Shown in pieces: positions 7,643 through 25,361 of a stretch of 32,845 nt of DNA. The first letter of the stretch is position 1; the number at the start of each line of letters is the position of its first letter. Source of the DNA: an uncultured SAR86 cluster bacterium (lineage in GTDB: Bacteria; Pseudomonadota; Gammaproteobacteria; Magnimaribacterales; D2472); assembly GCA_902602595.1 (NCBI GenBank), contig CACKRJ010000011.1:1-32845 (forward strand), given 5' to 3'. Under the pieces are notes generated by a model. It made no database searches, was not told the DNA's origin, and saw nothing but the letters and a program-made list of their open reading frames with translations. A program made the position numbers and the translations under genes.

Positions 7643-8818
7643 ATGACAGAAAATACAATTCCATCAGCTGAAGATTTATATAAAAGGGCTGAAGATATAA
7701 AAACCGTCCTTAAAAGTAGAGCAGAAGAAACTGCAAAATTACGAAGACTTACAGATGAAACTATCCAAGATTTTAAAGATCTTGGTTTTTTTAAAATTGT
7801 TCAACCCAAAAGATGGGGTGGATATGAAATGGATCCAATTGTCTTCTACAAAGTTACATCTATTATTGGAGAGGCTTGTATGCCATCTGCATGGGTATAT
7901 GCGACAGTAGGAGTGCATAACTGGCAAATTTCTGTTTTTGATGAAAAAGCTCAAGATGAAGTATGGGGTGAAGATAATTCAGTCCTTATTTCTTCCTCTT
8001 ATGCTCCAAAAGCATTAGCTAAACCTGAAGAAGATGGTTTTGTTGTTTCTGGTGAGTGGGATTGGTCATCGGGGAGTGATCACTGCGATTGGTTTTTTGG
8101 CGGAGCAATTCTTGACCCTTCAAAAGGTCTTGATAGCTTTGTAACATTACTCATACCAAGAGCAGACTATGAAATCATAGATAATTGGCATACGTATGGT
8201 TTAAAAGGCACTGGAAGCAAAAGAATTAAAGTAGATAATATCTTCGTCCCTGCTCACAGGATTCATTATTTAAAAGATGCTTTCACAAACAATAATCCTG
8301 ACAAAACTAATAAAGGTCCTTTATATAAAGTTCCATTTGGACAGATTTTTACTCATGCGGTAGCTATTCCTGCTTTAGGCGCTTATAGAGGAGCACTTAA
8401 TGCATTTATTGAAGGAGCAAAAGAGAGAGTCTCTAGTTTTGGAGTTGAGGCCAAAACAAATCCCATAACATTAACCTTAGCATCAGAAATTTCCACTGAA
8501 ATAGATCAGCTATGGCATAACATTGAGGCTAATGTTAAATCTATGATGGATGCAGCCAATCAATCTAAAGATATTGATATAAATGATCGGATTAGGTATC
8601 GCTATCAAGTCAGCACTGTAAATGATAGATGTGTCGCTGGCGCTTTAAAACTAGTTAAAGCAAGCGGTGGATCAACGGTTTATTTGGGCAATGAGATAAC
8701 GAATAAATTTTTAGATATTATGATGACCCAAGTTCATGTTGCAAATATTTCTGATCCTTTTGCCATGGATTATGGTTCAAGTTTTTTGGGCATTGAGACG
8801 GAAAATTTAATGTTATAA
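7643..8818 (+). CDS. HsaA-like flavin-dependent monooxygenase (acyl-CoA dehydrogenase fold)
   Basis: A 391-aa protein with acyl-CoA dehydrogenase fold of the C-terminal-domain-2 type (PF08028), the group D monooxygenases that include HsaA, HpaB-like and DszC-like enzymes. Visible: GFFKIVQPKRWGGYEMDP near residue 50, the 'MPSAWVYATVGVHNWQI' helix, FVVSGEWDWSSGSDHCDWFFGGA (family 'SG-W-F-SG--H--W---G'), WHTYGLKGTGSKRIKVDNIFVP (family 'GL-GTGS----V---FVP'), and a C-terminal GGSTVYLG-EITNKFLDI-MTQVHVAN. The YEG-type catalytic Glu of true acyl-CoA dehydrogenases is absent. In cholesterol degradation HsaA hydroxylates the phenolic A ring with reduced flavin from HsaB; no HsaB-like reductase is in the window. 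It starts the operon with Rieske oxygenase and two KstD-like genes. Exact substrate is inference. Confidence 0.82.
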   Translation: MTENTIPSAEDLYKRAEDIKTVLKSRAEETAKLRRLTDETIQDFKDLGFFKIVQPKRWGGYEMDPIVFYKVTSIIGEACMPSAWVYATVGVHNWQISVFDEKAQDEVWGEDNSVLISSSYAPKALAKPEEDGFVVSGEWDWSSGSDHCDWFFGGAILDPSKGLDSFVTLLIPRADYEIIDNWHTYGLKGTGSKRIKVDNIFVPAHRIHYLKDAFTNNNPDKTNKGPLYKVPFGQIFTHAVAIPALGAYRGALNAFIEGAKERVSSFGVEAKTNPITLTLASEISTEIDQLWHNIEANVKSMMDAANQSKDIDINDRIRYRYQVSTVNDRCVAGALKLVKASGGSTVYLGNEITNKFLDIMMTQVHVANISDPFAMDYGSSFLGIETENLML

Positions 8819-8833
8819 ATTACATAAAAAAAT

Positions 8834-8847
8834 GGGGGAGCATTTTG
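8834..8847 (+). promoter_or_regulatory. strong Shine-Dalgarno deciding a TTG start (Rieske gene)
   Basis: GGGGGAG at 8834-8840 sits 4 nt before TTG at 8845-8847. The leader GAGCATTTTG is nearly identical to the leader of the other TTG-start gene at 14563 (GAGCATCTTG). Confidence 0.6.
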
Positions 8848-9891
8848 AGTAATAAAAAAATAAGAATAATAGATCAAACACCGCCGCCAGATAGGTATGG
8901 TCGAGGTTGGCATACCTTAGGGCTTTCCGAATCATTTACGTCAAAACCAGTCGGCGTTAATGCTTTTGGTACTAAATTAGTCATTTTTCGGAACTCAAAA
9001 GGCGAAGCTTTAGCTCTGCAGGCAGCTTGCCCTCATATGGGAGGAGATCTAAGTATGGGCAAGGTTGATGGCGATATGGTTCGGTGTCCCTACCATGAAT
9101 GGGGTTGGGGAAAGGATGGAGAGTGTTTAGATATTCCTTATGCTAAAAAAATTCCCAAAGCTGCTTGTATTCAAAGCTGGAAGGTGCATGAAGAAAATAA
9201 ATTATTGTTTGTATGGAACGACCCAGAAGGTGCGGAGCCATTAGACCATGAAATCATCCCTAGAGAAGAAGCATGCTTTTCTGACAAATGGTCAAATTGG
9301 GTGCTAGAGGAAAATGTTATAAATATTAACTGTAGAGAGTTAATAGATAATATGGCTGATATGGCGCATTTTAAAACTGTTCACGGGGTAACAGCAACTC
9401 GGTTTAAGAATATCTTCGAAGGTCACGTATTAACACAATTAAATGAAGGAAAAAATCTAGAAGGGTCGGAGTATGATGAAGGCGGGATAATGAAATCAAA
9501 AGCTACATATTTTGGTCCAGCATATATGATGTGTTGGATGACAAATGAAGGTCAAGGATTGAAGCAAAAATCAGTTCAATTGGTAAGTCATGTACCGATC
9601 GATAAAGATAGTTTTCTTTTAAGGCATGGAGTTATTGTTGAGAAGAATGAAAGTTTTACTGATGAGCAGAATCAAGAAATGGTAGATATGTATACAGAAA
9701 TGACTCAAATGTCATTTAAGCAAGATGTAGAGATATGGCATAACAAAATTAGGGTTGATAACCCTCTTTTATGTGATGGCGATGGCCCAGTTCATAAATT
9801 GCGTGAATGGTATAACCAATTTTATTTAGATAGATCTAAAGTTCCTAGCTCTTTATCCAAAACCTTGGAGTGGGAATCTAAACTCTTATAG
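8845..9891 (+). CDS. KshA-like Rieske non-heme iron oxygenase (steroid 9-alpha-hydroxylase type)
   Basis: The oxygenase component of a Rieske monooxygenase, 348 aa. The Rieske [2Fe-2S] ligands are C62-x-H64 and C81-x2-H84 (CPHMGGDLS...VRCPYHEW); the mononuclear iron site is H175 and H180 (DNMADMAHFKTVHG) and probably D294 (QDVEIWHNK). The N-terminal RYGRGWHTLGLSESF and single-subunit length match the KshA/cholesterol 7-desaturase-like branch rather than alpha-beta ring-hydroxylating dioxygenases. KshA opens steroid ring B by 9-alpha hydroxylation, together with KstD. The start is TTG at 8845, backed by GGGGGAG; no in-frame ATG precedes the Rieske domain. The electron-transfer partner (KshB-like) is not in the window. 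Exact substrate is inferred from the KstD-like genes that follow 9 bp later. Confidence 0.87.
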   Translation: MSNKKIRIIDQTPPPDRYGRGWHTLGLSESFTSKPVGVNAFGTKLVIFRNSKGEALALQAACPHMGGDLSMGKVDGDMVRCPYHEWGWGKDGECLDIPYAKKIPKAACIQSWKVHEENKLLFVWNDPEGAEPLDHEIIPREEACFSDKWSNWVLEENVININCRELIDNMADMAHFKTVHGVTATRFKNIFEGHVLTQLNEGKNLEGSEYDEGGIMKSKATYFGPAYMMCWMTNEGQGLKQKSVQLVSHVPIDKDSFLLRHGVIVEKNESFTDEQNQEMVDMYTEMTQMSFKQDVEIWHNKIRVDNPLLCDGDGPVHKLREWYNQFYLDRSKVPSSLSKTLEWESKLL

Positions 9892-9900
9892 GATAGAAAA

Positions 9901-11613
9901 TTGCAAAATTTTGATGAAACTTATGATGTTCTTGTTGTCGGAAGTGGCTGCGGGGGAATTACTGCGGCATTGACAGCAAATATTTCAAATTCTTTAAAAG
10001 TTTTGATTATTGAAAAAAGCAAGCTAATTGGTGGTACAAGTGCGACTTCTGGAGGCGTTATTTGGATTCCAAACAATCATCATGCTTTGAAAGTTGGCGC
10101 TGATGATTCAATATCAGAGGCAAAACAATATTTAAAATCCACTATACCGCCAGATGAATTCAATGAGCCTATGATTGATGCGTATCTTGAACATGGTCCT
10201 AAAATGGTAAAGTTTATGGAAGATAACACTGATGTGAGTTATACCAGTCTTGAACACTATCCTGATTATTTTCAAGATGCTCCTGGAGTAAAATTAGGCA
10301 ATAGAGCTTTAGAACCATCTCCAGTATCTGCAGATACATTGGGAGAGGATGTTGATAATCTTCATCCCTCTGGCCCACAAACAATTCTTTTTGGTCGTTA
10401 TGGGGTTAATTTTGAAGAGTCACATGCATTTACCACTCAATCACCTGGATGGCTTAAATTATTTTTAAAAATTTTTTTCAAGTATTGGTTTGATATCCCA
10501 TGGAGACTTAAACGAAAACGATCTAGAAGATTGGCTTTTGGCGCTGCCTCAGTTGCTAGATTAATTTCTTCAGCAAAAAAGAGAAATATTCCAATATGGA
10601 GATCAACAGAATTAAAAGAATATATAGTTGAAAATAATAGAGTTGTCGGCGCATTAGTAAACAAAGATGGTCAAATCTTGAGAATTAAAGCTACTAGGGG
10701 TGTCATCGTTGCCTCGGGAGGATTTGGGCAGAATCAAGCAATGAGAGAGGAGTATTTACCCAAACCAACAAACACTGATTGGGGTTGCGAACCAAAGACG
10801 AATACAGGTGATCCAATTAAAGCAGCAGAGGCAATTGGAGCACAATTAAAATTTATGAATAAAGCTTGGTGGGTAACAACACTAAAAGCGCCTGATGAAG
10901 ATTTTCCGAGACTCAGCGAAGTAGAAAAATCAATGCCAGGTAATTATACAGTTAATAAGTCTGGAAAACGCTTTGCTAATGAATCTCAGAACTACCTTAC
11001 TTTTATGTTGGAAGTATTGCGAAAACAGGAACAAGGAGAGTCCTTTACACCAATGTATATGATATTTGATTCTAATCATCGAAAAAATTATCCTGTAGGA
11101 CCACTTATGCCAGGTAAGTTTTTTCCAGACCCTTTAGTAAAATTTGTTCATAGAAATTGGTTTAATGACGATTTTATTACCCGTGCAAACTCTATTCAGG
11201 AGCTCGCACAAAAAACAGGGATAAATCCTGATGGTCTTGAAGATACAATTCAAAAAGTTAATAAGTTTTCTGAAACCGGAAAGGACTTAGATTTTCAAAG
11301 GGGGGATAATGAAAGAGATAGATTCTCTGGCGATCAAAGCCTTATCAATCCATGTTTGGGTCCAGTCAATCAAGCTCCATATTATGCAATGAGAATTGAC
11401 CCAGGTGAATTTGCAACGTGTGGAGGAATGGCAATTAACGAATATGGGCAAGTTCTTGATAATGACAATCAAGCTATTGGAGGTTTATATGCAACTGGAA
11501 ATTGCACCCCAGCCCTATTAACTACATATCCAGGGCCTGGAGCTACAATTGGTCCTGCAATGACATATGGATTCATTGCTGGTAAACATATAAGCGGGTC
11601 AAATACTTTATAA
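9901..11613 (+). CDS. kstD: 3-ketosteroid delta1-dehydrogenase-like flavoprotein (cytosolic)
   Basis: A 570-aa FAD enzyme of the fumarate reductase/KstD superfamily. The N-terminus has the dinucleotide fold (DVLVVGSGCGGITAALTA), then IEKSKLIGGTSATSGGVIWIPNN; the C-terminus has LYATGNCTPALLTTYPGPGATIGPAMTYGFIAGKH. In the Rhodococcus SQ1 enzyme the last block carries catalytic Tyr487 and Gly491; their equivalents here, Y543 and G547 of YPGPG, are kept. It has no export signal. The TTG start at 9901 is backed by AGGA at 9890-9893, which overlaps the Rieske stop; no ATG lies in frame before the FAD motif. The enzyme would put a delta1 double bond into ring A of a 3-keto steroid, the partner step to the Rieske 9-alpha-hydroxylation. 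The length is somewhat above the usual 510-565 aa. The next gene, 6 bp on, is a paralogue. Confidence 0.85.
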   Translation: MQNFDETYDVLVVGSGCGGITAALTANISNSLKVLIIEKSKLIGGTSATSGGVIWIPNNHHALKVGADDSISEAKQYLKSTIPPDEFNEPMIDAYLEHGPKMVKFMEDNTDVSYTSLEHYPDYFQDAPGVKLGNRALEPSPVSADTLGEDVDNLHPSGPQTILFGRYGVNFEESHAFTTQSPGWLKLFLKIFFKYWFDIPWRLKRKRSRRLAFGAASVARLISSAKKRNIPIWRSTELKEYIVENNRVVGALVNKDGQILRIKATRGVIVASGGFGQNQAMREEYLPKPTNTDWGCEPKTNTGDPIKAAEAIGAQLKFMNKAWWVTTLKAPDEDFPRLSEVEKSMPGNYTVNKSGKRFANESQNYLTFMLEVLRKQEQGESFTPMYMIFDSNHRKNYPVGPLMPGKFFPDPLVKFVHRNWFNDDFITRANSIQELAQKTGINPDGLEDTIQKVNKFSETGKDLDFQRGDNERDRFSGDQSLINPCLGPVNQAPYYAMRIDPGEFATCGGMAINEYGQVLDNDNQAIGGLYATGNCTPALLTTYPGPGATIGPAMTYGFIAGKHISGSNTL

Positions 11614-11619
11614 CTAACA

Positions 11620-13221
11620 ATGGGCCTATTTAAAAGAAGAGATTTTTTTTTCAAAAGCTTCATTGGTCTTATAAGTACAGGTTTTCTCCTTAGCTTAAAA
11701 AAACCTCTAAAAGACAATAATTTTATCTGGCATGGCGAAACTGATATTGTAGTTATAGGATCAGGAACAGGATTAGCTGGTGCTATTACAGCGCTAAAAA
11801 AAGGACTTAGAGTTGTTGTTTTAGAAAAAGCTCGCACAGCTGGGGGCACAACTGCAATTTCAGGAGGCGTTGCTTGGGTTCCAAACAATCATGTTATGAA
11901 GAGGGAAGGATTTACCGATTCAAAAAACAATTCATTAAAATATTTAAATCAACTTTCACAAGGACAGGCAGATCAAGAATTGATTGAGGCATTTGCTACA
12001 GAAGGTCCAAGAATGGTCAAATTTCTTGAGGATAACACCTCATTAAAATGGAGGGTCTCAAAAATTATGGGAGAGGCTTCAGAGTATCATACTGATTGGG
12101 AGGGGAGTGTTCTTAAGGGCCGAAGTATTGAGCCCGATACTGGAGGGCCAGATGGAGCTCATATTGGAGGAATTTTGATCTCTCATTTACTAAATACTTT
12201 TAAGAGTCTAGGTGGTGAAATACTTATAGATACTCCAGCTACAGAGTTAATTAGCAGAGAAAATGAAGACGGCTCTTCTGAAGTTCTTGGGGTAGCATAT
12301 AGCTCAAAAGGAAAGTTATATAATTTAAAAGCAAAAAAAGGAGTTCTCATAGCAAGTGGTGGCTTTGATCACGACGAACAAATGAAAAAAAATTTTTTAA
12401 CAATTCCTTCTTATGGGGTTGGAGTCAAATCGAATACCGGAGATGGTATAAAGATGGCGATGAAACTTGGTGCAGATTTAAGAAATATGAATGAGGTATG
12501 GGGAAGTGTGGTCTACAAAGGGGAGGCTGGAGCTTTAGGATCTTTGAATGCTGTGACTGAAAAAAAATATTATCCTAGCTGCATTTTAGTAAATCGTTAT
12601 GGAAATAGATTTTCAAATGAGAAAGCAGATTATGACTCTTCATGGCGTTCATTTCATGCTAAAGAAAATTGGGGAGCATTAAAATATAAAAATATCCCAG
12701 CTTTTCAAATATTTGATCATAAAGTAAGACTTAATGGCACATTGGGTGGCAAAACGTTTGATCAGTCATTGCCTAGTTGGTTTGTTAAATCTAACACTAT
12801 AGAGGGACTAGCAAAAAAGTTAGGTATTAATCAAAATAATTTAGAATTAACCATTTCTAATTTCAATAAAAATGCCTTGTTAGGCATTGATCCAGATTTT
12901 CACAGAGGTGAAACTCATTACGATAGGATGGGTCTTAAGGACACTAGTTTAGCTCTTCAGCCACTTGACCAACCACCTTTTTATGGAGCAGAAATTGCAC
13001 CTGCTCATTTAGGAACATGTGGAGGTCCTAGAGTAAATAAATTTTCACAGGTGTTAGATGTAAATAAAATTCCCATCAAAAGACTTTGTGCTTCTGGGAA
13101 TTCTTCTGGAGTAGGCTCTCCAGGACCAAGTTATGGAGGAGGTGGAGGCACAATTGGTCCAGCACTTACCTTCGCATATATTGCAGGGAAAACCCTATCT
13201 TCCTTTGAGAATTGGGTATAA
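11620..13221 (+). CDS. 3-ketosteroid dehydrogenase-like flavoprotein with a Tat-type signal
   Basis: A 533-aa paralogue of the preceding gene (shared SGGV-WVPNNH, EGPRMVKFLEDNT, IGPA-T---IAGK blocks). Unlike it, the N-terminus is MGLFKRRDFFFKSFIGLISTGFLL: a twin-arginine RRDFFFK motif followed by a hydrophobic stretch and charged residues, which reads as a Tat signal or Tat-dependent anchor. FAD motif: DIVVIGSGTGLAGAITAL, then LEKARTAGGTTAISGGVAWVP. At the C-terminus the Y-P-G-x-G active-site block is replaced by Y505-G-G-G-G509, keeping the key Tyr and Gly but dropping Pro. It starts 6 bp after the first paralogue and is the last gene of the operon. A folded flavoprotein exported with cofactor fits the Tat system. 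Likely periplasmic steroid (or related enone) dehydrogenation; a soluble acceptor for its electrons is not visible. Confidence 0.8.
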   Translation: MGLFKRRDFFFKSFIGLISTGFLLSLKKPLKDNNFIWHGETDIVVIGSGTGLAGAITALKKGLRVVVLEKARTAGGTTAISGGVAWVPNNHVMKREGFTDSKNNSLKYLNQLSQGQADQELIEAFATEGPRMVKFLEDNTSLKWRVSKIMGEASEYHTDWEGSVLKGRSIEPDTGGPDGAHIGGILISHLLNTFKSLGGEILIDTPATELISRENEDGSSEVLGVAYSSKGKLYNLKAKKGVLIASGGFDHDEQMKKNFLTIPSYGVGVKSNTGDGIKMAMKLGADLRNMNEVWGSVVYKGEAGALGSLNAVTEKKYYPSCILVNRYGNRFSNEKADYDSSWRSFHAKENWGALKYKNIPAFQIFDHKVRLNGTLGGKTFDQSLPSWFVKSNTIEGLAKKLGINQNNLELTISNFNKNALLGIDPDFHRGETHYDRMGLKDTSLALQPLDQPPFYGAEIAPAHLGTCGGPRVNKFSQVLDVNKIPIKRLCASGNSSGVGSPGPSYGGGGGTIGPALTFAYIAGKTLSSFENWV

Positions 13222-13230
13222 CTAAATTAT

Positions 13231-13248
13231 TACGTAAAAATTTATGTA
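13231..13248. terminator. weak AT-rich dyad between converging genes
   Basis: TACGTAAA (13231-13238) and TTTATGTA (13241-13248) can pair with one G-U around a 2-nt centre. It lies in the 39-bp gap between the end of the KstD-like operon and the end of the reverse SnoaL-like gene, where a two-way terminator would be expected. It is low in GC, so only suggestive. Confidence 0.25.
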
Positions 13249-13260
13249 CCAAGATAAGCT

Positions 13261-13665
13261 TTAAATATCTTTTTTAGAAAAAAATGGATCAAGGGTTCTT
13301 CCTTCAGGAGGGCCAAAGTATGTTTGGACTTTGTAAACTTTCCCATTGTCATTTATCCAATATATCTCAATGCTATCAAGTTCTATTGGCTCATTTTCAA
13401 CAGTCCCATAATTTTTTACATGAAGTGCTGCTTGATTTTCGCATATTTGCATAAAAACTGGTTCTATTTTCCAATGATGCCCATCTTTAAAACTATTTCG
13501 CCAAGTTTCTTCAAGGGCTATTTTTCCATTTTTATCAGGACCTCCTACAGGATCAAACATCACCACATCATCAGTCCAATTATCCATCCACTTTTCCTTC
13601 TCTTCATTATTCCAAGAATTAAAATGAATTTTCATTGTTGTTTCAATTTGTTCTTTTGTAGGCAT
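13261..13665 (-). CDS. SnoaL-like (NTF2 superfamily) protein
   Basis: A 134-aa cone-shaped NTF2-fold protein, single domain, no signal. The pattern HFNSWNNEEKEKWMDNWTDDVVMFDPVGGPDKNGKIALEETW is the standard SnoaL start (helix, 'W----DD--F-DPVG----G---I---W'), and the end has IEIYWINDNGKVYKVQTYFGPPE ('---F-F--DGKI---R-Y-'). Members include delta5-3-ketosteroid isomerases, dehydratases and polyketide cyclases; next to steroid-type genes an isomerase or dehydratase role is a reasonable inference, but the catalytic residues cannot be pinned from this alone. It has a consensus AGGAGG ribosome site (complement of 13670-13675) and lies 20 bp after the degenerate SDR, so the two are co-transcribed. 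Confidence 0.78.
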   Translation of the reverse strand: MPTKEQIETTMKIHFNSWNNEEKEKWMDNWTDDVVMFDPVGGPDKNGKIALEETWRNSFKDGHHWKIEPVFMQICENQAALHVKNYGTVENEPIELDSIEIYWINDNGKVYKVQTYFGPPEGRTLDPFFSKKDI

Positions 13666-13685
13666 AAATCCTCCTTACTTTTATA

Positions 13686-14462
13686 TTAAATTCTGTAACC
13701 ACCATCCAGATATAACGTCTGACCAGTTATATATTTAGCTCTATCTGATGCAAGGAAGATGACGGCATCTGCAACATCTTGAGCTTCACCTAATTTTTTA
13801 AGAGCGGTATTGTTTTTTGCAGCTTCTATGTATCTGTCATCATAATCCTTGCCTTTAATTCTTAAGAAAATTCCTGCCTCTATAATTCCAAGTTGAATAG
13901 AATTAGCTCTAATATTATTTCGACCCTCTTCTTTTGCAATCCCATTGATTAAGGCGTCAATTGCTGCTTTTGGGGCAACGGATAGGACATCTTTAGCAGG
14001 CCATCTGGATAAACCAATGGAGCTAAGAGTTGTATATGAACCTCCAAATTTTCTAAGAATAGGCAGACTATTTTTAATTATATTAAAAAACCCATCTGCA
14101 TCTGTTCGCATGACATCATCCCATTCGTCATATGACAATTCATTGATCCATTTCATTCTTATATCTGATCCGGTTGCATTTACTATGCTATGAATTCGTT
14201 CATTTTGTAATTCTTGAAAGAAACCCTCTACTTGAGTTTTGTCATTAATAGACAATTTTTTTGATGAAACAACTCCGCCATGATCTAAAATTTCTTTTTT
14301 TAAATCATTGGCCGCAGTTTCATTGCCATGATAAGAAAATACTACTGGAACACCATGCGAGGCAAATGTTTTGCAAATTGCTGAGCCAATACCTCCACTC
14401 CCACCAATAACTATTGCAGAGCCTTCAGGAAAATTTTTTCTTTTAGATATATGATCAATCAT
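13686..14462 (-). CDS. short-chain dehydrogenase/reductase-fold protein with altered catalytic residues
   Basis: A 258-aa classical-SDR-fold protein. The cofactor motif GGSGGIG (about residues 19-25) is intact, as are the late ITGQTLYLDGG block and the NNIRANSI segment. The active site is not: Ser148 and Lys165 align with the usual Ser and Lys, but the Tyr of YxxxK is Ser161 (S-V-A-P-K), and the usual 'vN' Asn motif before 'G-F' reads TDADGFF with Asp. The NAG motif reads NATG. It may bind NAD(P) without oxidoreductase activity, or use a different acid such as a hydroxyl of the substrate. It leads a two-gene reverse operon with the SnoaL-like gene and is divergent from a normal SDR across 100 bp. 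Reading frame is clean, so this is not a frameshift artefact. Confidence 0.82.
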   Translation of the reverse strand: MIDHISKRKNFPEGSAIVIGGSGGIGSAICKTFASHGVPVVFSYHGNETAANDLKKEILDHGGVVSSKKLSINDKTQVEGFFQELQNERIHSIVNATGSDIRMKWINELSYDEWDDVMRTDADGFFNIIKNSLPILRKFGGSYTTLSSIGLSRWPAKDVLSVAPKAAIDALINGIAKEEGRNNIRANSIQLGIIEAGIFLRIKGKDYDDRYIEAAKNNTALKKLGEAQDVADAVIFLASDRAKYITGQTLYLDGGYRI

Positions 14463-14505
14463 TTATTTCTCTATATTTACTATTATGAATTACAAGTCTA
14501 TTTAT

Positions 14506-14534
14506 TTTGCATTTGTTATGTTAAAAAATATAGT
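14506..14534 (+). promoter_or_regulatory. candidate sigma70 promoter for the 14563 SDR
   Basis: TTTGCA at 14506-14511 and TATAGT at 14529-14534 with a 17-bp spacer, in the 100-bp gap between two divergent SDR genes. It would give a leader of about 20 nt holding the AGGAG site. Fit to consensus is fair (TTTGCA against TTGACA). Confidence 0.35.
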
Positions 14535-14551
14535 CATTATTAATTTTTAGT

Positions 14552-14565
14552 AGGAGAGCATCTTG
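14552..14565 (+). promoter_or_regulatory. strong Shine-Dalgarno deciding a TTG start (SDR gene)
   Basis: AGGAG at 14552-14556 sits 6 nt before TTG at 14563-14565. The bases GAGCATCTTG match the leader of the Rieske gene (GAGCATTTTG at 8838-8847) except for one pyrimidine. Confidence 0.55.
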
Positions 14566-15468: not shown

Positions 15469-16211
15469 ATAGAAATAAATATTAAGCAATAAAATATTCC
15501 AGCTAAGCCCAATCCAAATCCTAACGGAAGTTCTTTGTCTTTATTTTTATTAAAAACGTAAAGGCATAAAGTAATACTTGATCCAATTAATAGAATTGGT
15601 CCGATAGCTGAAGCGCCAAAAACAGCTCCAATTCCTCCAAGTAACAAGAAATCACCAGATCCAATTCCATCTATTGACCTCATCATTTTATGTACATGAT
15701 TGATGCAAAATAATATTCCATATCCAAAAATTAATCCAAGCAATGCATCCAAAGGAATTGTAAAAAATCCAGTTGATATATTAAGTAATAATCCGGCTAT
15801 CATTAAAATGATGCTAAGAGGTTGAAATAGATGTAGAGTCTGTATGTCAATGATTGATTGAATATACAAACTAATTACAATTAAGACGATTACCCATGCT
15901 GAAAGATTGGTAAATTCCATTATATTAAATATAAATAAAATAAAAGCAGCAATTAATGCCTCGTGGATTAAATAGCTGTAGCTTATTTTGGCATTGCATG
16001 TTCGACAAGTTCCTCTGCTTAAAAGATATCCTACGAATGGAATAAGCTGCACAATTGTCAGTTGATTTTTGCAAAGAGGACAAAATGATCTAGGGTAAAA
16101 AATAGTAATTTCACTATTTTCTATTGGCAGCCTGTAAATTAACATTGAAGCAAGACTTCCAAGAGATCCACCAAGTGCAATCAATAATAAATTAGTCAAC
16201 ACTAACTCCAT
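15465..16211 (-). CDS. pilD: prepilin peptidase (type IV leader peptidase, A24 family)
   Basis: An inner-membrane aspartic protease of 248 aa that cleaves, and in many cases N-methylates, type IV prepilins and type II secretion pseudopilins. The N-terminal part has the cytoplasmic zinc motif CPLC (SFCPLCKNQL) and CRTC (GTCRTCNAKISY) and IHEALIAAF (family 'Y---E'). Catalytic Asp residues are expected in IIDIQTLHLF and in the GxGD block GIGSGDFLLLGGIGA, both present. Several hydrophobic helices span the rest. Length is a little below the usual 260-290 aa. No pilin or secretion gene is adjacent; instead it follows gamma-glutamyltransferase and a 29-aa membrane miniprotein, 10 bp after the latter. 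Its 3' end overlaps the forward SDR by 4 bp. Confidence 0.9.
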   Translation of the reverse strand: MELVLTNLLLIALGGSLGSLASMLIYRLPIENSEITIFYPRSFCPLCKNQLTIVQLIPFVGYLLSRGTCRTCNAKISYSYLIHEALIAAFILFIFNIMEFTNLSAWVIVLIVISLYIQSIIDIQTLHLFQPLSIILMIAGLLLNISTGFFTIPLDALLGLIFGYGILFCINHVHKMMRSIDGIGSGDFLLLGGIGAVFGASAIGPILLIGSSITLCLYVFNKNKDKELPLGFGLGLAGIFYCLIFISI

Positions 16212-16221
16212 AATTGATTTT

Positions 16222-18006: not shown

Positions 18007-18008
18007 TT

Positions 18009-18743
18009 TTATGTTAGTAGGCCTCCATCTACCCTCAAATCAATTCCATTAATATGTATTGCATCTTCAGAAGCTAAAAATGCTATGGTGCTGGCAATTT
18101 CATCGGGAGACCTGTTGACCCCATCAATTGGCATAATCTTTTTTAGGAGCCTAGTATCAATATCTTTTGGCATATCTGGATTTGTTGACATTGGAGTTTT
18201 AATTGAAGCAGGACAAACACAATTAACATTCAAGCCCTTCATTCCGTATTCAACTGCTAGAGTTTTAGAAAAGGCACTGATTCCTCCTTTTGATGCACTG
18301 TAAGCCGCAGTCCAAGCATGAGAGCCAAGAGCAGCGCTTGATGAAACATTGACTATCGCTCCTTTGCTTTTAAGCAGCAATGGAAGAGCATGGCTGCACA
18401 TAAAAAATGTTCCAGTAAGATTTACATTAAGAATTTTATTCCAATCATCTATTTCAACTTCATGAGAATTATCAAACCTTAAAATCCCAGCAACATTTAT
18501 TAGAGCATCTAATCTATCTAGGTCTTTAAAAAAATTTTCAACATCGGATAAGTTCGAAATATCCAAAACCTTAGAGGCCGCTTCTTTATTTTTTAACATA
18601 GATTTAGTTTTAATGAGTTCATCTTCATTAAGATCTACAATTATTAGAATTGCACCTTCGGCATCCATTCTTAGGGCTGAAGATCTTCCAATACCAGACC
18701 CAGCTCCTGTAACTAAAACAACTTTATTTTTAAATCTTTTCAT
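18009..18743 (-). CDS. SDR family oxidoreductase (NAD(P)-dependent dehydrogenase)
   Basis: A 244-aa classical SDR: TGAGSGIG cofactor motif (residues 13-20), D in IIVDLNEDE for NAD preference, INVAG in place of NNAG, catalytic Ser of NVSSSAALGSHAWTA and Tyr148-x3-Lys152 (YSASK), and a VDGG tail block. Complete and typical in length. It is likely a hydroxysteroid or hydroxyacyl dehydrogenase given its place between a FadD19-like ligase (26 bp upstream) and gamma-glutamyltransferase (2 bp downstream). SDR substrate cannot be deduced from sequence. Confidence 0.87.
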   Translation of the reverse strand: MKRFKNKVVLVTGAGSGIGRSSALRMDAEGAILIIVDLNEDELIKTKSMLKNKEAASKVLDISNLSDVENFFKDLDRLDALINVAGILRFDNSHEVEIDDWNKILNVNLTGTFFMCSHALPLLLKSKGAIVNVSSSAALGSHAWTAAYSASKGGISAFSKTLAVEYGMKGLNVNCVCPASIKTPMSTNPDMPKDIDTRLLKKIMPIDGVNRSPDEIASTIAFLASEDAIHINGIDLRVDGGLLT

Positions 18744-18769: not shown

Positions 18770-20389
18770 TTATGTTAATTGCTCTTCAGCAAAAGTTTTA
18801 GCCCATTTGTAATTTGCTTTTCCATTTGGAGCTCTTTGAACTTCATCAGTAAATAGAATAATTTTAGGCAACTTATATCCAGCAATGCTTTTTCTAGTAT
18901 TTTCAATTAACTCAGCCTCATTAATCTGCTGATTATCTACAGTTGAGACCACTGCTACAATTTTTTGACCAAATTTTTCATCCGGCATTCCAACCACTAA
19001 ACAATCAAAAACCGAAGCATCTTTTTTTAATGCTTCTTCAACTTCTTCAGGATATATTTTTTCACCTGCGGAATTTATACAATTACTGCCTCTACCCAAT
19101 AGAGTAATTGTTCCATCTGCCTCAAGTTTTGCATAGTCACCTGGAAAACTATATCTAACACCATCAACTTCTCTAAATGTTTCAGCGGATTTTTTCTCAT
19201 CTTTATAATAACCAACTGGAACTAGACCAGATGTTCCAATAAGACCTATCTTTTCAGATCCTGGAGAAAGAATCTCCCCATCATCCGCTAAAACAATTAC
19301 ACCTGGATTGAGAGCAAATTTAGCTGTAGCAGGGGGGTTGTCTCTTGTTGTTACTGAGGCACCCATTCCGCCTTCTGTGGATCCCATAGTATCCATTAAC
19401 TTCATATCATGATGCTCTAACAGCCCCTGTTTCACTTCGGCACTCCACATGACACCACTTGAAATAATTACCTGTACAGAACTTATGTCATAAGCACTAC
19501 CATCTGATACGCCTCTATTTAAGGCATCAAGCATCGGCTTTGCAAATGCATCACCAACTATCACAATGTTCGTTGCTTTTTTGTTTTGAACTTGAGCCCA
19601 TAACTGATCTGGATCAAAACCAAGATTGCTTGTAGTTATTGCAGTACCACCGAGAAGCAGGGGTAAGAATGCACCTAGCCACATACCCGTTCCATGCATA
19701 AGAGGACAGCCAACTACACTTCTAATGAATGCATTACCTGATTTTGATGCTTCTATTCTTGATTCTAGGTCACTTAAATCTTCGGGAACATCGTAGCCCA
19801 TTGCCTTAAGTGTTCTAAAAAGATAAACAAGGAACTCTCCTTGTTTGTACATTACACCCTTAGGCATTCCAGTTGTACCCCCGGTATAAAGCATATAAAT
19901 GGTTTCAGGATCTCGATGAACCCTTTTCATGGGTGAATGCTGGTTCAAGAGATCTTCATACTTTAAAGATTGATCAAATTTTGACTCTGTGCCATCTGAA
20001 ACTTCTATCCAAGCCTTTATATTAGGAAGAGATCCAGCAATTTCCTTTATTCTTGAGCTATAGCATGCATGATAAAAAACTGCTTCAGCATCAGAGTTTT
20101 CTAGCAGGTAGATTAGTTCTTCCTCAACATAACGGTAATTAACATTGATTGGGATTCCACCAACTTTAAAAATTGCATATTGAGCAATTAGGTATTCATT
20201 GGAGTTGTTTAAATACAGCCCAGCTTTTGAATTAGCCCCAAGCCCAGCCTCACTTAATGCAGATGCGATTTTACTTGCTCTGTCATCATATTCTTTCCAT
20301 GTAACAATATCTTCACCACATATCAAAGCATCATTTTCAGGCACTAAATCTGAAACCATTTCCCAAACCGACGCAAAATCTAAATTCAT
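18770..20389 (-). CDS. acyl-CoA synthetase, FadD19-like (steroid side-chain type)
   Basis: A 539-aa ANL-superfamily ligase that forms acyl-AMP and then acyl-CoA. The P-loop-like motif TGGTTGMPKG is at residues 169-178; STEGGMG, FPGDYAKLEADGTITLLGR, the hinge and KIYPEEVEE follow, and PNGKANYKWAK near the end carries the adenylation Lys. The N-terminal half (NEYLIAQYAIFKVGGIPINVNYRYVEEEL) is strikingly like actinobacterial FadD17/FadD19, which activate sterol side chains in cholesterol catabolism; this is recognition from memory. Length also fits (about 545). It is the gene after a KstD-like flavoprotein (12 bp) and before an SDR, supporting a role in a steroid or isoprenoid acid pathway. Confidence 0.87.
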   Translation of the reverse strand: MNLDFASVWEMVSDLVPENDALICGEDIVTWKEYDDRASKIASALSEAGLGANSKAGLYLNNSNEYLIAQYAIFKVGGIPINVNYRYVEEELIYLLENSDAEAVFYHACYSSRIKEIAGSLPNIKAWIEVSDGTESKFDQSLKYEDLLNQHSPMKRVHRDPETIYMLYTGGTTGMPKGVMYKQGEFLVYLFRTLKAMGYDVPEDLSDLESRIEASKSGNAFIRSVVGCPLMHGTGMWLGAFLPLLLGGTAITTSNLGFDPDQLWAQVQNKKATNIVIVGDAFAKPMLDALNRGVSDGSAYDISSVQVIISSGVMWSAEVKQGLLEHHDMKLMDTMGSTEGGMGASVTTRDNPPATAKFALNPGVIVLADDGEILSPGSEKIGLIGTSGLVPVGYYKDEKKSAETFREVDGVRYSFPGDYAKLEADGTITLLGRGSNCINSAGEKIYPEEVEEALKKDASVFDCLVVGMPDEKFGQKIVAVVSTVDNQQINEAELIENTRKSIAGYKLPKIILFTDEVQRAPNGKANYKWAKTFAEEQLT

Positions 20390-20401
20390 TTTTTCTCTCC
20401 T

Positions 20402-22096
20402 TTAATTAAGGTTTTGACCTATTCTTCTTCCTGAAAAGATACAATCGGCAACTGATAAACCCGAAACATATATATTTGAACAGATACCCACAGCAGTTCT
20501 TCCTGCAGCATACAAACCTGGGATCTCAACATTTGACTGATTTAATACCCCACCTGTTTCCTCATTAACTCTCAAACCCCCTAAAGTTAAACAAGGTAAG
20601 GGCGCCATAGCTGAATCTATTGAAATATCCATGATATAGAAGGGGCCTTTAAGCTCCTTCATATCTTTAGAATTTTTTTGAAATTCACAGCTGGTTTCAT
20701 TTCTAGCTGCAGCATTATATTTTTTTACAGCATCAGCCAGGTTCTTTTCAGGTATGTGATAAATCTTAGATAATTCTTGAAGGGTCTTTCTTTTTTTGGC
20801 ATTAAAGTACATCAGTACTCTTGCTGAGTCCCTTTGAAATGGAAGAGACGCAGCTGCTTCTTCCTTTGCTTGAGCAAAAAGCTCTTGATCTAAAATTAAA
20901 TAAGCTTTGCCATCATGATCCTCGCACATCGCATCTCCAAGAGTAGCACCATAAACCATTTCATTTCCAAATCTTTCTCCATGCTTGTTTACCACAAGGC
21001 CTTGTGCAAAAGCCATTGGCGGGTTAATCATTCTCCATGCAGTTACTCTATCCATATGATCAGTTTTTCCACCCACACTTTGACCAAGTCTTATTCCAGA
21101 GCCAGTATCATGAGAAGTCCCTAAAGGCATTCCATCTTTATATTTAGGCGCATTATCTTCAACCATCTCTCGATTAAAGATAAATCCACCTGCAGATAAG
21201 CAAACTCCTTTGTTGGCTTTTATGTGAACAACTTCTCGGTAATTCTTTTCGATTTTTTGAGCACGATTAACATAAATTTTGCCTATAAATTGGGGAATAA
21301 AAGCTCCTGGCATATTTTGCGGAATCAGCATTTGAAACGTTTCGGCTTTAGACATGAGTTTTTTATGTTTTTCTGCAATTTTTCCAGAAGGAAGCATTAA
21401 AGCTTTTATTCCGAGCACTCTTCCTTCTGTTGATATCACTAAAGAGCGTGCTTCAGTCTGAGGAAATATTTTCAAGCCTTTTGATATTGCTGATTTCTTT
21501 AGAGGGTAAAATATCGTACCTCCTACGCCTATGGGTTTAAATGGACCTTCTTCATATCCTCTATGCCCCCTTGGAGCTGGAGTGGCTTTTTCCATATAAC
21601 TTGGCACAAGGGAATTGTCTGAATGATAAAGAAAATAACCTGCACCTGGATAACTGGTTTTAGTTTGATAATACTGAGAGTTAAATTGAACACCATTATC
21701 CATTAGCCATTGCGTGTTTTCTGCAGAGGTCTCACAGAATCTTTTCAAGGTACTTTCCTTAACTATATCTCCTGTTTCTTGAATTAAATAATTGAACATA
21801 TTCTCAACTGAATCTTCTATCCCAGCTTCTTTTTGTATAGGAGTACCTCCACCGGCATAAAAAATACCTCCACTGCGAGCTGTTGCGCCACCTCCTGAGG
21901 TCTTGTCAATTCCGATTACTGAATGTCCCAGATCTAAAGCTTCATTTGCAGCTGCAATGCCAGCTCCACCAAGACCAACAATAACCAGATCAGCTTCGTC
22001 ATTCCAATTTATAACATTAGGGTTAGAAACTATTTGAGCAGCTTCTATCTCAGAATGCCATTTTAAATCATTAGGGTTTATTTCAGTTTCCAGCAT
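20402..22096 (-). CDS. FAD-binding steroid dehydrogenase-like protein, delta4-(5-alpha)-KstD type
   Basis: A 564-aa flavoprotein of the KstD/fumarate reductase superfamily. The FAD fold is at DLVIVGLGGAGIAAANEAL (residues about 36-54), followed by DKTSGGGATARSGGIFYAGGG. Its C-terminus, LYAAGRTAVGICSNIYVSGLSVADCIFSGRRIGQ, differs from the YPGxG type of the two genes at 9901 and 11620 and matches the delta4-(5-alpha)-3-ketosteroid dehydrogenase branch, in which a Tyr-x-Ser pair (Y466/S468 in the Rhodococcus RHA1 enzyme, as I recall) works in catalysis; here Y543 and S545. It would introduce a double bond at C4-C5. It has no export signal. Its 5' end overlaps the SDR upstream by 14 bp. Assignment to the superfamily is strong, to the branch moderate. 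Confidence 0.82.
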   Translation of the reverse strand: MLETEINPNDLKWHSEIEAAQIVSNPNVINWNDEADLVIVGLGGAGIAAANEALDLGHSVIGIDKTSGGGATARSGGIFYAGGGTPIQKEAGIEDSVENMFNYLIQETGDIVKESTLKRFCETSAENTQWLMDNGVQFNSQYYQTKTSYPGAGYFLYHSDNSLVPSYMEKATPAPRGHRGYEEGPFKPIGVGGTIFYPLKKSAISKGLKIFPQTEARSLVISTEGRVLGIKALMLPSGKIAEKHKKLMSKAETFQMLIPQNMPGAFIPQFIGKIYVNRAQKIEKNYREVVHIKANKGVCLSAGGFIFNREMVEDNAPKYKDGMPLGTSHDTGSGIRLGQSVGGKTDHMDRVTAWRMINPPMAFAQGLVVNKHGERFGNEMVYGATLGDAMCEDHDGKAYLILDQELFAQAKEEAAASLPFQRDSARVLMYFNAKKRKTLQELSKIYHIPEKNLADAVKKYNAAARNETSCEFQKNSKDMKELKGPFYIMDISIDSAMAPLPCLTLGGLRVNEETGGVLNQSNVEIPGLYAAGRTAVGICSNIYVSGLSVADCIFSGRRIGQNLN

Positions 22097-22850
22097 TTAA
22101 ATCTCCTGTTTTTCCACCATCAACTACCAAGCTAGCACCTGTAATAAAAGATGCCTCAGGGCCAAGCAAGAAAATGATAGGATGAGCAATTTCAATGGGT
22201 TTAGCAATTCTTTTCATAGGAATTGTTTTAATTGTCTCATCCATCATTTCTTTAACCGGAATCGCTCTTTCTGTTGCAGGCGTAAGTACAGCGCCTGGAA
22301 TAACGCAATTAACCCTAACATTAGGTGCAGCTTCAACAGCACTGGCTCTAGAAAAATTAATTAATCCTGCCTTTGCAGCACCATAGGCTGACATGTAGGC
22401 AACTCCTTTTAATCCAACTACAGAAGCTACGTTTACAATAGCTCCTTTCTTCGCTTCGATCATCCATGGTAAGACTGTCTTTGTTGTTAAAAACACCGCA
22501 TCAAGATTTGCTTTGAAGTTTGTTTTCCAAGCAGATAGATCTAGATCAATAATTTTTCCTGTATGAATTGATGGGGCATTATTGACCAATCCATCAATTG
22601 TTCCACAAGATTTATATACATCTTCCAATGAATGTATAATTTGGGATTCATTACTTACATCAACGTTATGCGCAATAACATTTGATGATATTTTTAATAA
22701 CTGTTTTTCAGCATTTTTTAGGTTTTCCTTATCACGACCAGTAATAATTACTGTTGCACCTTTTTTTAAACATAGTTCAGCGGTTGCATACCCAATGCCC
22801 GCACTTGCGCCCGTAATATAAATGATCTTTTTATCAAATGTTTTTTCCAT
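22083..22850 (-). CDS. SDR family oxidoreductase
   Basis: A 255-aa classical SDR: TGASAGIG (residues 13-20), VNNAP in the NNAG position, IVNVASVVGLKGVAYMSAYGAAK with catalytic Ser, Tyr156 and Lys160, NCVIPGAVLTP after it, and a FITGASLVVDGG end. A purine-rich ribosome site (aggggggat) precedes the ATG. It overlaps the following flavoprotein by 14 bp (22083-22096) and lies 21 bp after the subtilisin-like autotransporter gene. The overlap argues for coupled translation and a shared pathway. Substrate unknown; a hydroxysteroid or hydroxyacyl-CoA substrate is inferred. Confidence 0.87.
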   Translation of the reverse strand: MEKTFDKKIIYITGASAGIGYATAELCLKKGATVIITGRDKENLKNAEKQLLKISSNVIAHNVDVSNESQIIHSLEDVYKSCGTIDGLVNNAPSIHTGKIIDLDLSAWKTNFKANLDAVFLTTKTVLPWMIEAKKGAIVNVASVVGLKGVAYMSAYGAAKAGLINFSRASAVEAAPNVRVNCVIPGAVLTPATERAIPVKEMMDETIKTIPMKRIAKPIEIAHPIIFLLGPEASFITGASLVVDGGKTGDLNAGN

Positions 22851-22871
22851 ATCCCCCCCTATGAAAAAAAG

Positions 22872-25361
22872 TTAGATTTTTATATTAAAACCTAATGAGG
22901 CATACCAATAGTCATCCATAAATTTTATGTGATAAGGGTCTGATTTGTAACCTAGAGTTAAACCAAAACCAATATTTTTATATGCAGTTAAATAGTCCAC
23001 TTTTGAATGAATTTCTCTTCCACTAGGATCAAGATTAAAACTTATTGAATTAAACAGAATATTCTTTTCTTTGGTTCTATAGGTAGGAACATTTAGTCTC
23101 AGTTTTCCAGATTCTAGTCGGATAGGTTGATCTATAGTTACTATCAACGAGTCATTGTTATTAAGAATAGATGATTTTAAGAACCCAATTCCAAAAGAAG
23201 ATGAGTATAGGCTTGATATAGATTTAATCATCCCGAGTTCATTAGCAATGCCGTTAGATTGACCCCAATAAAATGATCCAAATAGTTTGCCCCCCATCAA
23301 ATTTATTGAATTGGAAATACCAATAAATGAAGTCAGTTGATTTTTGCTTCCATTAAATGCTCCTGACCCACTTAAACCTAAGCTTGCATCATTTTCTTTC
23401 ATTAAGCCTAATTGCACCGAAGGCAAATAGAATTTTGGTTGAATTTCCAAAAGAGCAGTGGTGCTTGAGTTTCTTTTGCCAAAAATTTCGTTTGTTTTAA
23501 ATTTGTTTCTGCCTGCTGAAATTGCAACAGCAACATCAAAGCTATCATTATTTTTTAATATTGAACCAAAAGTAGTTCCTGCAGCGCTAAAATTTAACCA
23601 TGGGTTGCTAAATTGAGACCTTAAATTGCTTTTGACCCTTAATTCTGGGTCCTGAAATATTCCTAACGGCCAGCTTCCATTTAATCCATGACTGAAGAAT
23701 AAATCGTCAGCATAATCATAGTAAGAAATATATTGATTTATTTCTTCTCTTGCCTTCAAAAAGTAATAGGGAGTAACGAGTTCTTGAGAAAGGCTTTGAG
23801 TTTTCATTCTGCCAATTCCAAATTCAGCGTCTCCTGAGGATACAGTATGCGAAATAGGGGTTTGTATGTTATTAAACCCATCTATATTTACTATTTGATT
23901 TCTATAATCAGAGGCTAAACTGCTTAAGGATCTTCTAAAAGGCGCATCTAATTCATCAAAAAATATAACTGAATGATTACTTAAGCCATTGGTGATTGAG
24001 TCACCAAATGAAGGGCTTGTTAATTGTATATTAGAAAATATTGCTGGCGTCATTGGACCGGATAAACTCAGTGACATCATTGCACTAACTTGCCCAACAG
24101 GTTCTGTTGCGGCATTGAGGTCCATCAGACCTTGCCCATATATCTCTCCATCTTCATAGATTCCATTTTTATTAGCAGTGCTAAATAATCGATAAACAAT
24201 CTCATCGTTACCAAGCTGTCCTTCAAAATGGTCTGCAATAAGTGCAAGACCTCCAGATACAAATGGAGCAGCAAACGATGTTCCGCTTGCTACGGCGTAA
24301 CAAGAGTTATTTGTTATACAATTGTTGTAGTTATCATCGTTGGTGTTCCCAATATAAATTCCTGTATCAGAAGCTGAAGTTGGGTAAGCAAGAGTAATTT
24401 CTCCGCCAGGCGCAGCAATACAATAATTTTGAGCAACACCACATCTGTTGGAAAAATCACTAATTACTCCATTCTCATCAACTGACACAACTGCAATAGA
24501 ATGCCCTTGGATTTCAGGAATGTAATGAGCCATTCCTGGAAAAATTTCAGGACTTGAATAATCTGCACCTTGTGATGCATAACCACCTGCATTTCCAGCA
24601 GCCCAAACATAAATTGTTTTTTCTGAATTAGGTGTGCCAACTTGTGACATTTCTGCAATAGTGTTTGGAAAAGCGTACCTTACTTGAGCTTCAGTATAAT
24701 CATTGATATTGCCTGAATAACCATAACTATTATTAACTATATCAACGTCATACTGATTATATATCTCAAATAATTGACTGAAAAAATTATCTATCCCCGT
24801 AAAATCTGGAGCACCTGTAACGTTTCCTGCTCCATCATCATCTCCAATATCAACTGGATCATAGGTTGGATCTGGTTCAGCAAGCTGAATGGCTACGAAT
24901 AATACATCTGCTTCAAAAGCCACCCCGTGCATTGGCGTGATGTCTGTTTTATCTTGTTTTCCAGCTGCAACTGAAGCTACCATGGTTCCATGTCTTTTTT
25001 GTCTTGTGTTGGGAGTGTAATTTGAGTAGCTAAGTGCGCTATCGTTCGATAGCCTTGTAGTGCTAATCTCAATATGGGAATTATCCAATCCAGAGTCAGT
25101 AATTCCAATAGTAATACCTGCTCCAGTTGCACCTCTAGCATAAGCATATGATGCATTTATCATATTTAAACCCCATTGGCTTTGATACTCATAATAACCC
25201 TCGAATTGATCCTTCAGTTCATCAAAAGAAAGAGTTGGAGGAGTTGCGGGTGGGGTAGGAGTCTGCGCAACTACAGGGGAATTATTGGAGCCACCACCGC
25301 CACCTCCACCACAAGAAATTAGAGTAAATAAAACTAATACCAGAGTTCTGTTTTGCTTCAT
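22872..25361 (-). CDS. subtilisin-like (S8) serine protease, autotransporter lipoprotein
   Basis: An 829-aa surface protease. The N-terminus is a lipoprotein signal ending LISC with Cys17, followed by seven Gly and a Pro/Thr-rich linker. The subtilase domain (about 65-415) has the triad Asp89 (GITDSGLD), His124 (RHGTMVAS) and Ser362 (SGTSFAAPFVSGG), with WAAGNAGG holding the oxyanion Asn. The remaining 400 residues end in alternating hydrophobic strands (about 560-829), the pattern of an autotransporter beta-barrel. This is the NalP/S8-autotransporter layout: lipid-anchored passenger delivered by its own barrel. It is the first gene of a reverse run of eight genes and diverges from a second acyl-CoA ligase across only 39 bp. 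Substrate proteins are unknown. No Shine-Dalgarno is obvious. Confidence 0.86.
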   Translation of the reverse strand: MKQNRTLVLVLFTLISCGGGGGGGSNNSPVVAQTPTPPATPPTLSFDELKDQFEGYYEYQSQWGLNMINASYAYARGATGAGITIGITDSGLDNSHIEISTTRLSNDSALSYSNYTPNTRQKRHGTMVASVAAGKQDKTDITPMHGVAFEADVLFVAIQLAEPDPTYDPVDIGDDDGAGNVTGAPDFTGIDNFFSQLFEIYNQYDVDIVNNSYGYSGNINDYTEAQVRYAFPNTIAEMSQVGTPNSEKTIYVWAAGNAGGYASQGADYSSPEIFPGMAHYIPEIQGHSIAVVSVDENGVISDFSNRCGVAQNYCIAAPGGEITLAYPTSASDTGIYIGNTNDDNYNNCITNNSCYAVASGTSFAAPFVSGGLALIADHFEGQLGNDEIVYRLFSTANKNGIYEDGEIYGQGLMDLNAATEPVGQVSAMMSLSLSGPMTPAIFSNIQLTSPSFGDSITNGLSNHSVIFFDELDAPFRRSLSSLASDYRNQIVNIDGFNNIQTPISHTVSSGDAEFGIGRMKTQSLSQELVTPYYFLKAREEINQYISYYDYADDLFFSHGLNGSWPLGIFQDPELRVKSNLRSQFSNPWLNFSAAGTTFGSILKNNDSFDVAVAISAGRNKFKTNEIFGKRNSSTTALLEIQPKFYLPSVQLGLMKENDASLGLSGSGAFNGSKNQLTSFIGISNSINLMGGKLFGSFYWGQSNGIANELGMIKSISSLYSSSFGIGFLKSSILNNNDSLIVTIDQPIRLESGKLRLNVPTYRTKEKNILFNSISFNLDPSGREIHSKVDYLTAYKNIGFGLTLGYKSDPYHIKFMDDYWYASLGFNIKI

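Follow-up and report, generated by a model that had tools for sequence, protein, structure and literature searches.

Our analysis revealed evidence for a second steroid ring-opening module in a genome of the SAR86 cluster. The DNA under study, here called the window, is the whole of contig C11 (32,845 bases) from a 1.35 Mb SAR86 genome (G000, referred to as the own genome; 21 contigs, 82.8% complete). Within it we identified an accessory insert of about 7.9 kb that encodes, among others, a 3-HSA hydroxylase-like oxygenase (HsaA2), a 3-ketosteroid 9alpha-hydroxylase oxygenase (KshA2) and two KstD-like flavoproteins (KstD1 and KstD2). It is likely that this insert constitutes a second, substrate-specific ring-opening module feeding a core steroid pathway encoded elsewhere in the same genome, with activity and substrate predicted from homology. 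Comparisons were drawn from samples of genomes of the same genus (n = 26), order-wide (n = 151) and class-wide (n = 369). Many of the genus genomes are incomplete (e.g. G144 with 81% and G164 with 78% completeness), and absences from SAR86 genomes are therefore provisional.

The boundaries of the insert were defined by relatives that lack it. In all four insert-free genomes of the genus from which the locus was fetched (G095, G074, G038 and G127), its left and right neighbours are adjacent. Specifically, positions 3600-4163 of the G127 locus (L098) match window positions 6974-7533 and positions 4181-5000 match 15471-16288, with a separation of 17 bp. G030, which belongs to another genus, was uninformative on the insertion because the left neighbours are not found beside the right ones. 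A preliminary description of the sequence had treated positions 7643-25361 as one unit; we rejected a single island of this extent, since the flanks of the shorter insert adjoin in insert-free relatives and SDR2, the FadD19-like ligase, the TesI-like gene and SDR3 stay in place in these four genomes. The same is true for a CasG-like ligase and for a subtilase-like protein. GC content gave no signal of the insert (0.364 versus 0.355 and 0.359).

The window KshA has relatives in the named SAR86 genomes AG-447-P08 (L003, 96% identity), AG-447-I15 (L006, 96%) and AG-464-M18 (L005, 66%). The gene order of the window is kept in these three loci from the left neighbours through the FadD19-like ligase, with the exception of a prepilin-peptidase-like gene that is absent in L005 and also in G038 and G074. 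Within the genus, HsaA2 (75-100% identity) was found in five of 26 genomes and core HsaA (42-45%) in 19; three encoded both and five neither. KshA2-type genes (64-100%) were detected in five of the 151 order-wide genomes (G000, G104, G144, G113, and G001, where the gene is cut by a contig end). The seven insert genes are under purifying selection, with dN/dS ratios (NG86) of 0.016-0.16 against L003, L006 and L005 (for KshA against L005, dS was not estimable). The AG-464-M18 KshA (L005:10001-11041) groups with that of G001, and its neighbours KstD1 and KstD2 share 85-87% identity with those of the window; a replacement of KshA within this insert is possible. Because L005 sits with G001 in the KshA tree and not with the close relatives of the window, the insert genes may lack one common history.

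The four ring-opening genes are separated by gaps of only 26, 9 and 6 nt and probably form one operon. HsaA2 has its top solved match in 2rfq ('3-HSA hydroxylase, oxygenase'), followed by 3afe ('Hydroxylase, putative'), and is 43% identical to the core HsaA of the own genome. KshA2 carries the PF19298 KshA_C domain (E 3e-72) and matches the solved KshA 4qdc with 335 bits (E 5e-99), compared to 63 bits for the best non-KshA Rieske protein. Its motifs read CPH..CPYH, NMADMAHFKTVH and QDVEIW, and the 2Cys-2His Rieske motif as well as the 2His-1Asp iron motifs are intact in the window and five relatives. KstD1 and KstD2 show the FAD_binding_2 fold and have the 3-oxosteroid 1-dehydrogenase 7p18 as their best solved match; their tyrosines align with three tyrosines of solved KstD (4c3x/7p18), which we take to be catalytic. 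KstD2 forms a clade of its own in the KstD tree (support 100/100). The preliminary description had listed HsaA- and KshA-like proteins, flavoproteins, SDRs, a SnoaL-like protein and a ligase, and these open reading frames (ORFs) are indeed present at the places it gave; their products match known steroid enzymes and retain the motifs expected of them. The three KstD-superfamily flavoproteins of two types named there correspond to two KstD-like proteins (7p18) and one TesI-like protein (4at0). A role in sterol or steroid ring opening in a marine gammaproteobacterium, as it had suggested, is thus supported by homology.

Features of the window with positions, strand and the matches on which the names are based.
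Feature	Position	Strand	Basis
Accessory insert (~7.9 kb), likely second ring-opening module	7534..15470		flanks adjacent in insert-free relatives
HsaA2, 3-HSA hydroxylase oxygenase-like	7643..8818	+	2rfq E 3e-80; NCBIfam HsaA 345 bits
KshA2, one-piece 3-ketosteroid 9alpha-hydroxylase oxygenase	8845..9891	+	KshA_C; 4qdc; motifs
KstD1, 3-ketosteroid delta1-dehydrogenase-like	9901..11613	+	7p18 467 bits, 4c3x 231 bits; tyrosine motifs
KstD2, divergent KstD-like flavoprotein, twin-arginine-like N-terminus	11620..13221	+	7p18 205 bits
SnoaL-like small protein	13261..13665	-	PF12680 (SnoaL_2) E 8e-9
SDR1	13686..14462	-	PF13561/PF00106
MFE2/HSD17B4-type SDR	14563..15468	+	2et6 282 bits, 1zbq 123 bits
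SDR2, stable genome context	18009..18743	-	PF13561
FadD19-like acyl-CoA ligase, stable genome context	18770..20389	-	PRK07798 'acyl-CoA synthetase' 622 bits, cut-off 543
TesI-like 3-ketosteroid delta4-(5alpha)-dehydrogenase, stable genome context	20402..22096	-	4at0 223 bits
SDR3, overlaps TesI-like gene, stable genome context	22083..22850	-	NCBIfam SDR models, under cut-off
Acyl-CoA ligase, steroid-24-oyl-CoA synthetase (CasG)-like	25401..27110	+	PRK06187, CasG models

A core steroid gene set is encoded on other contigs of the own genome. It includes a core HsaA (C1:161621-162760; 393 bits on the NCBIfam HsaA model, cut-off 450), a core KstD (C2:133051-134751) and a core KshA (C1:16309-17536). 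A search with an HsaC profile built from two rows (L017 and L016) revealed two HsaC homologues (C1:33449-34345 and C2:83370-84137), both of which are by homology of the HsaC/BphC type. Of the proteins encoded around the first, on one strand of C1 (L058/L059), a FadD3 ligase (681 bits, cut-off 657), an aldolase of the HsaF type (585, cut-off 286) and the hydratases PRK07938 (310, cut-off 260) and PRK08290 (444, cut-off 280) exceed their cut-offs, and a hydratase of the HsaE type (355, cut-off 409) and an HsaD-like hydrolase (183 on its best model, cut-off 400) stay below them. The region further encodes an IpdE2-like and another acyl-CoA dehydrogenase and two CoA-transferase-domain proteins. 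A thiolase (PRK07801, 656 bits, cut-off 591) and a FabK-like protein in this region are presumably of the FadA6 and IpdC types, respectively. HsaG might be encoded in G000 by an ORF that spans the junction of the two pieces of this region; in G001, the neighbour of the aldolase carries PF09290. Near the second HsaC (L061, C2) lie genes for acyl-CoA dehydrogenases and hydratases, together with a P450, an OB-fold protein of the ChsH2 type and a thiolase-like protein (PRK07855, 478 bits, cut-off 469) that is presumably of the Ltp2 type; judged by these homologies, its neighbourhood is an igr-like side-chain gene set. A candidate for HsaB is a flavin reductase at C4:35532-35960 (PF01613, 112 bits, over its cut-off; RutF, 101 bits, cut-off 255).

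The absence of HsaC, HsaB and KshB from the window itself was described correctly, in that the contig has no HsaC match and the Flavin_Reduct and FAD_binding_6 matches lie on other contigs. The reduced or new route proposed from this absence was not supported, since the genome encodes, outside the window, homologues of HsaC (two), HsaD, HsaE, HsaF and FadD3 as well as the HsaB candidate; in addition, homologues of a thiolase, of CoA transferases, of hydratases and of acyl-CoA dehydrogenases are found on C1, and C2 holds the igr-like set. The whole-genome search for hsaC and hsaD suggested in the preliminary description thus found both types, and we rejected the possibility that they are missing. 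A published criterion for steroid degraders (PMC4810484) asks for at least six out of eight key enzymes, with KshA and HsaC among them; we found homologues of KshA, HsaA, HsaC, HsaD, KstD and TesI, and of HsaE, HsaF and FadD3 too, using hidden Markov models other than those of that paper and with several matches under NCBIfam cut-offs. 

Homologues of insert genes and of the second HsaC occur together in G001, where contig C9 encodes homologues of KshA2 (part), KstD1, KstD2, SDR1, TesI, the HSD4-like SDR and the second HsaC along with igr-like genes. This shared contig is our reason for proposing a link between the insert and the second HsaC. The same contig carries an HsaD-like hydrolase with 25% identity to the HsaD-like hydrolase of L017. 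In four genomes the second HsaC has beside it a protein of 1169-1242 aa that contains POR and DUF6537 domains, together with a small protein of the glyoxalase fold (L061:5094-8822, L065:10775-14284, L068:11008-14547 and L070:5747-9259; domains were scanned in L061 and L068 and assigned by homology in the others).

Taken together, the genome appears to hold a set of steroid genes of the aerobic 9,10-seco type, to which the insert would add an extra module of the same pathway. KstD1 and KstD2 would form the 1,4-dien-3-one, and KshA2 would hydroxylate C9, leading to spontaneous opening of ring B. HsaA2 may then hydroxylate the resulting phenol to a catechol. An extradiol dioxygenase from another locus would act next, and the second HsaC homologue at G000:C2:83370-84137 is the most likely candidate. 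The SDRs might oxidise hydroxyl groups of the ring or side chain. The inserted module would take a steroid that is poorly handled by the core HsaA, KshA and KstD.

Several observations weigh against this proposal. HsaA2 stays under the cut-off of its best model, NCBIfam HsaA (345 bits, cut-off 450), and is HsaA-like by best match only; KstD1 (502 bits) and KstD2 (335 bits) have NCBIfam KstD models as their best matches and are both under the cut-off of 789. With the NCBIfam HsaC model (cut-off 450), the two HsaC homologues reach 252 and 211 bits; the model for biphenyl-2,3-diol dioxygenase (cut-off 366) gives them slightly higher scores of 264 and 253 bits. Co-occurrence is loose and covers few independent lineages, the second HsaC being found in G000, G144, G100 and G001 and KshA2-type genes in G000, G104, G144, G113 and G001. 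HsaA2 occurs without a core HsaA in G144 and G164 (81% and 78% complete), and it might therefore replace the core enzyme there and not add to it. Finally, a FAD_binding_6 search did not find a KshB-type reductase in the own genome at its 82.8% completeness.

Alternatively, the insert could be redundant and duplicate the core function on the same substrate, for dosage or as spare parts. The enzyme families are shared with the core set and both sets occur in G000 and G104. However, insert and core copies of the own genome are only 39-47% identical, KshA and HsaA form separate clades, and purifying selection acts on the insert in small genomes, all of which suggests different jobs for insert and core; we therefore regard redundancy as unlikely. 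A still less probable explanation is the ring opening of a non-steroid polycyclic terpenoid, such as a hopanoid or other triterpenoid, by recruited enzymes, which the preliminary description had half suggested. The divergent KstD2 clade and the scores below several curated cut-offs would fit this idea, but KshA2, KstD1 and TesI score far higher on steroid enzymes than on other solved proteins, and homologues of 9,10-seco and later steps are encoded in the genome. That the module alters or detoxifies steroids without feeding the core pathway is very improbable, for although the window's contig has no match to the HsaC profile, the four genes reach exactly the catechol stage and the genome encodes two HsaC homologues. 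A second, substrate-specific module feeding the core pathway is thus the reading that we prefer.

The core KshA of SAR86 has a split architecture. It is encoded by two ORFs in 17 of 17 genomes read (G000, G001, G030, G034, G038, G046, G074, G089, G095, G100, G104, G107, G127, G139, G144, G145 and G149), comprising 18 loci with two in G030 (L058:16288-17593 on G000:C1, L066, L068, L074, L076 and L023-L035); G113 also has two-segment core KshA matches, at a locus outside those read. The first ORF (132-154 aa) contains a CxH...CxxH motif and the second (277-290 aa) the iron motifs, and at the junction the two overlap by up to 17 nt or lie up to 22 nt apart. In G000, the large ORF aligns to residues 19-63 (weakly, 16 bits) and 117-351 of 4qdc and leaves the intervening stretch, the site of the cluster ligands, unmatched. 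The small ORF aligns to residues 21-137 of the KshA 4qdf and is most like a KshA Rieske domain. Third codon positions hold 51% and 60% of the differences, as expected for coding genes. At a threshold of E 1e-30, only G324 matched besides G000 in the class-wide sample, with two one-piece KshA copies. We found no report of a split KshA or of a SAR86 Rieske enzyme in the open-access literature, most subscription papers being outside the search. Steroid genes with split KshA were also seen in G001 (L068, L069, L103) and G100 (L070, L072), which have another family code (f2). G095, a genome of the genus that consists of two contigs, encodes an HsaC homologue and a split KshA, and no HsaA of either type was found in it.

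The single FAD_binding_6 (PF00970) match of the own genome, on a contig other than the window, was rejected as KshB since it represents NqrF (683 bits). Across the genus, 21 of 26 genomes have one PF00970 match each and five have none, the own match being the one checked as NqrF; 18 of these frames are 411-416 aa long and the others 308, 388 and 448 aa. The lack of kshB that the preliminary description had proposed to follow up thus extends to the own genome as far as assembled, with at most one PF00970 match per genome in the genus. Fer2 matches in the own genome comprise NqrF and one frame of 113 aa beside Isc-like ORFs. Its neighbours resemble IscS, IscU and IscA, and a dedicated KSH ferredoxin was rejected on this ground. 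Of the uptake genes proposed for the same search, the Mce type was covered, and no MlaD match was found in the own genome at its completeness of 82.8%.

The N-terminus of KstD2 carries KRR[DE]FF[FL]K in the window, L006, L005 and G001, and R6 and R7 are invariant with L003 included. Positions 11620-11720 of the window encode a twin-arginine-like motif and a hydrophobic stretch that are kept in L003, L006, L005 and G001, which makes KstD2 a possible exported KstD-like enzyme. The eight literature matches listed of 316 contained nothing on a ketosteroid dehydrogenase exported by twin-arginine translocation (Tat). A bolder reading, which we regard as less likely than not, is that these bacteria possess two parallel steroid 9alpha-hydroxylases, neither using a KshB-type reductase and both served by another electron donor. 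One would be the one-piece accessory KshA2 and the other the core KshA with its Rieske cluster on a separate small protein and a catalytic chain keeping a cluster-less Rieske remnant; a Tat-exported KstD-like flavoprotein from the accessory operon would start steroid oxidation in the periplasm.

The preliminary description had called the gene set Actinobacteria-like. For the origin of the module we calculated unrooted trees of KshA (30 rows, catalytic part) and HsaA (five core HsaA rows used). The KshA tree included eight of the 17 split core KshA; four outgroup rows were dropped, L013 was omitted as its identity to the query equals that of L012, and eight stretches were fetched from the 35 plasmid records with a match. 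The window-type KshA form a clade (100/99) with L003, L006, L005, G001, G113 and L014, apart from eight actinobacterial rows (99/94), which are joined by one long-branch Sphingobium row (94/95). Constraining window-type KshA together with actinobacterial KshA was weakly rejected by the approximately unbiased (AU) test (p-AU 0.033), and equally weak results were obtained for core SAR86 KshA (0.045) and Burkholderiales (0.031). In the HsaA tree, a supported split (97/96) sets four actinobacterial rows apart from HsaA2, the core HsaA of SAR86, L014 and a Sphingobium row. The KstD tree was not used for origin because of its long branches. The actinobacterial affinity is therefore not borne out, and an actinobacterial transfer of the cluster was rejected on both trees, with an AU test for KshA alone. 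L014, labelled Spirochaeta sp. MED672 (60% GC), encodes a KshA of 65% identity in another context, which hints at gene transfer. It also has P450-like proteins and an HsaA that scores 453 bits (cut-off 450); its label may be wrong.

Among the remaining insert genes, SDR1 has homologues of 59% identity beside HsaA-KshA-KstD1 in G113 (L102) and of 73% in G001 (L069). The SDR that had been named 17-beta-HSD4-like does match HSD17B4 (1zbq), but is nearer to the (3R)-hydroxyacyl-CoA dehydrogenase 2et6, in two stretches (282 versus 123 bits); a 73% homologue lies close to the second HsaC in G001 (L068). In the stable region to the right, the TesI-like protein has the delta4-(5alpha)-KSTD 4at0 as best match (next, 89 bits), shows the YxSG motif of 4at0 as IYVSG and exceeds the PRK07121.1-4 cut-off (666 bits, cut-off 466). 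The name of the FadD19-like ligase fits its model PRK07798, which covers FadD19. The CasG-like ligase, just past 7643-25361, scores 419 bits on PRK06187 (cut-off 476) and 399 bits on the CasG model (cut-off 750).

The patchy distribution of a second ring-opening module among closely related bacteria of very small genome size suggests a niche-dependent steroid supply and genes worth retaining. The module offers a defined set of enzymes with which to ask what marine sterols the mostly uncultured SAR86 cells consume, and the split core KshA together with the missing KshB poses a concrete question on the electron route to a Rieske oxygenase. SAR86 was listed among predicted steroid degraders in 2016 (PMC4810484, accessible text), and a 2024 study described tesI, hsaA, hsaC, hsaD, fadD3, kshA and kstD in several SAR86 genomes of the Suzuki family and in no other genomes of the order, as far as its available text goes (PMC11582366). 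The clade is the same and the gene list much alike, and we therefore regard our finding as one confirmed case of what had been predicted in print, the accessory module being the new detail; the second inserted HsaA-KshA-KstD module and the split KshA are unmentioned in the accessible parts of both papers. G001 and G100 carry steroid genes under another family code, whereas the available text of PMC11582366 reports none outside some Suzuki genomes; these codes cannot be matched to its families.

Compared to other known systems, the proteobacterial testosterone (tes) type of a Cupriavidus plasmid (L015) has a TesI-like ORF directly after a KstD-like one, and KshA nearby (KshA 47%; 41% identity between its ORF after the KstD-like one and the window TesI), whereas the SAR86 genes are spread across several loci and partly duplicated in the insert. 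The reaction families are shared with Rhodococcus and Mycobacterium, and Rhodococcus has been described as having multiple KshA in one genome, each possibly dedicated to particular steroids (PMC4064121, in the text available). However, the window KshA is 41-46% identical to the eight actinobacterial loci compared and forms a separate clade, and SAR86 differs in that no KshB-type gene was found, nor an MlaD (Mce) match in the own genome. Two-chain Rieske oxygenases are known from NdmC/NdmD (PMC10380055) and the Micromonas CAO (PMC9615114); according to the accessible sections of these papers the catalytic chain lacks the Rieske cluster, as in the core SAR86 KshA and unlike the window KshA2. The substrates differ, and the Rieske domain of NdmD is fused to a reductase, whereas that of SAR86 is a stand-alone ORF of 132-154 aa.

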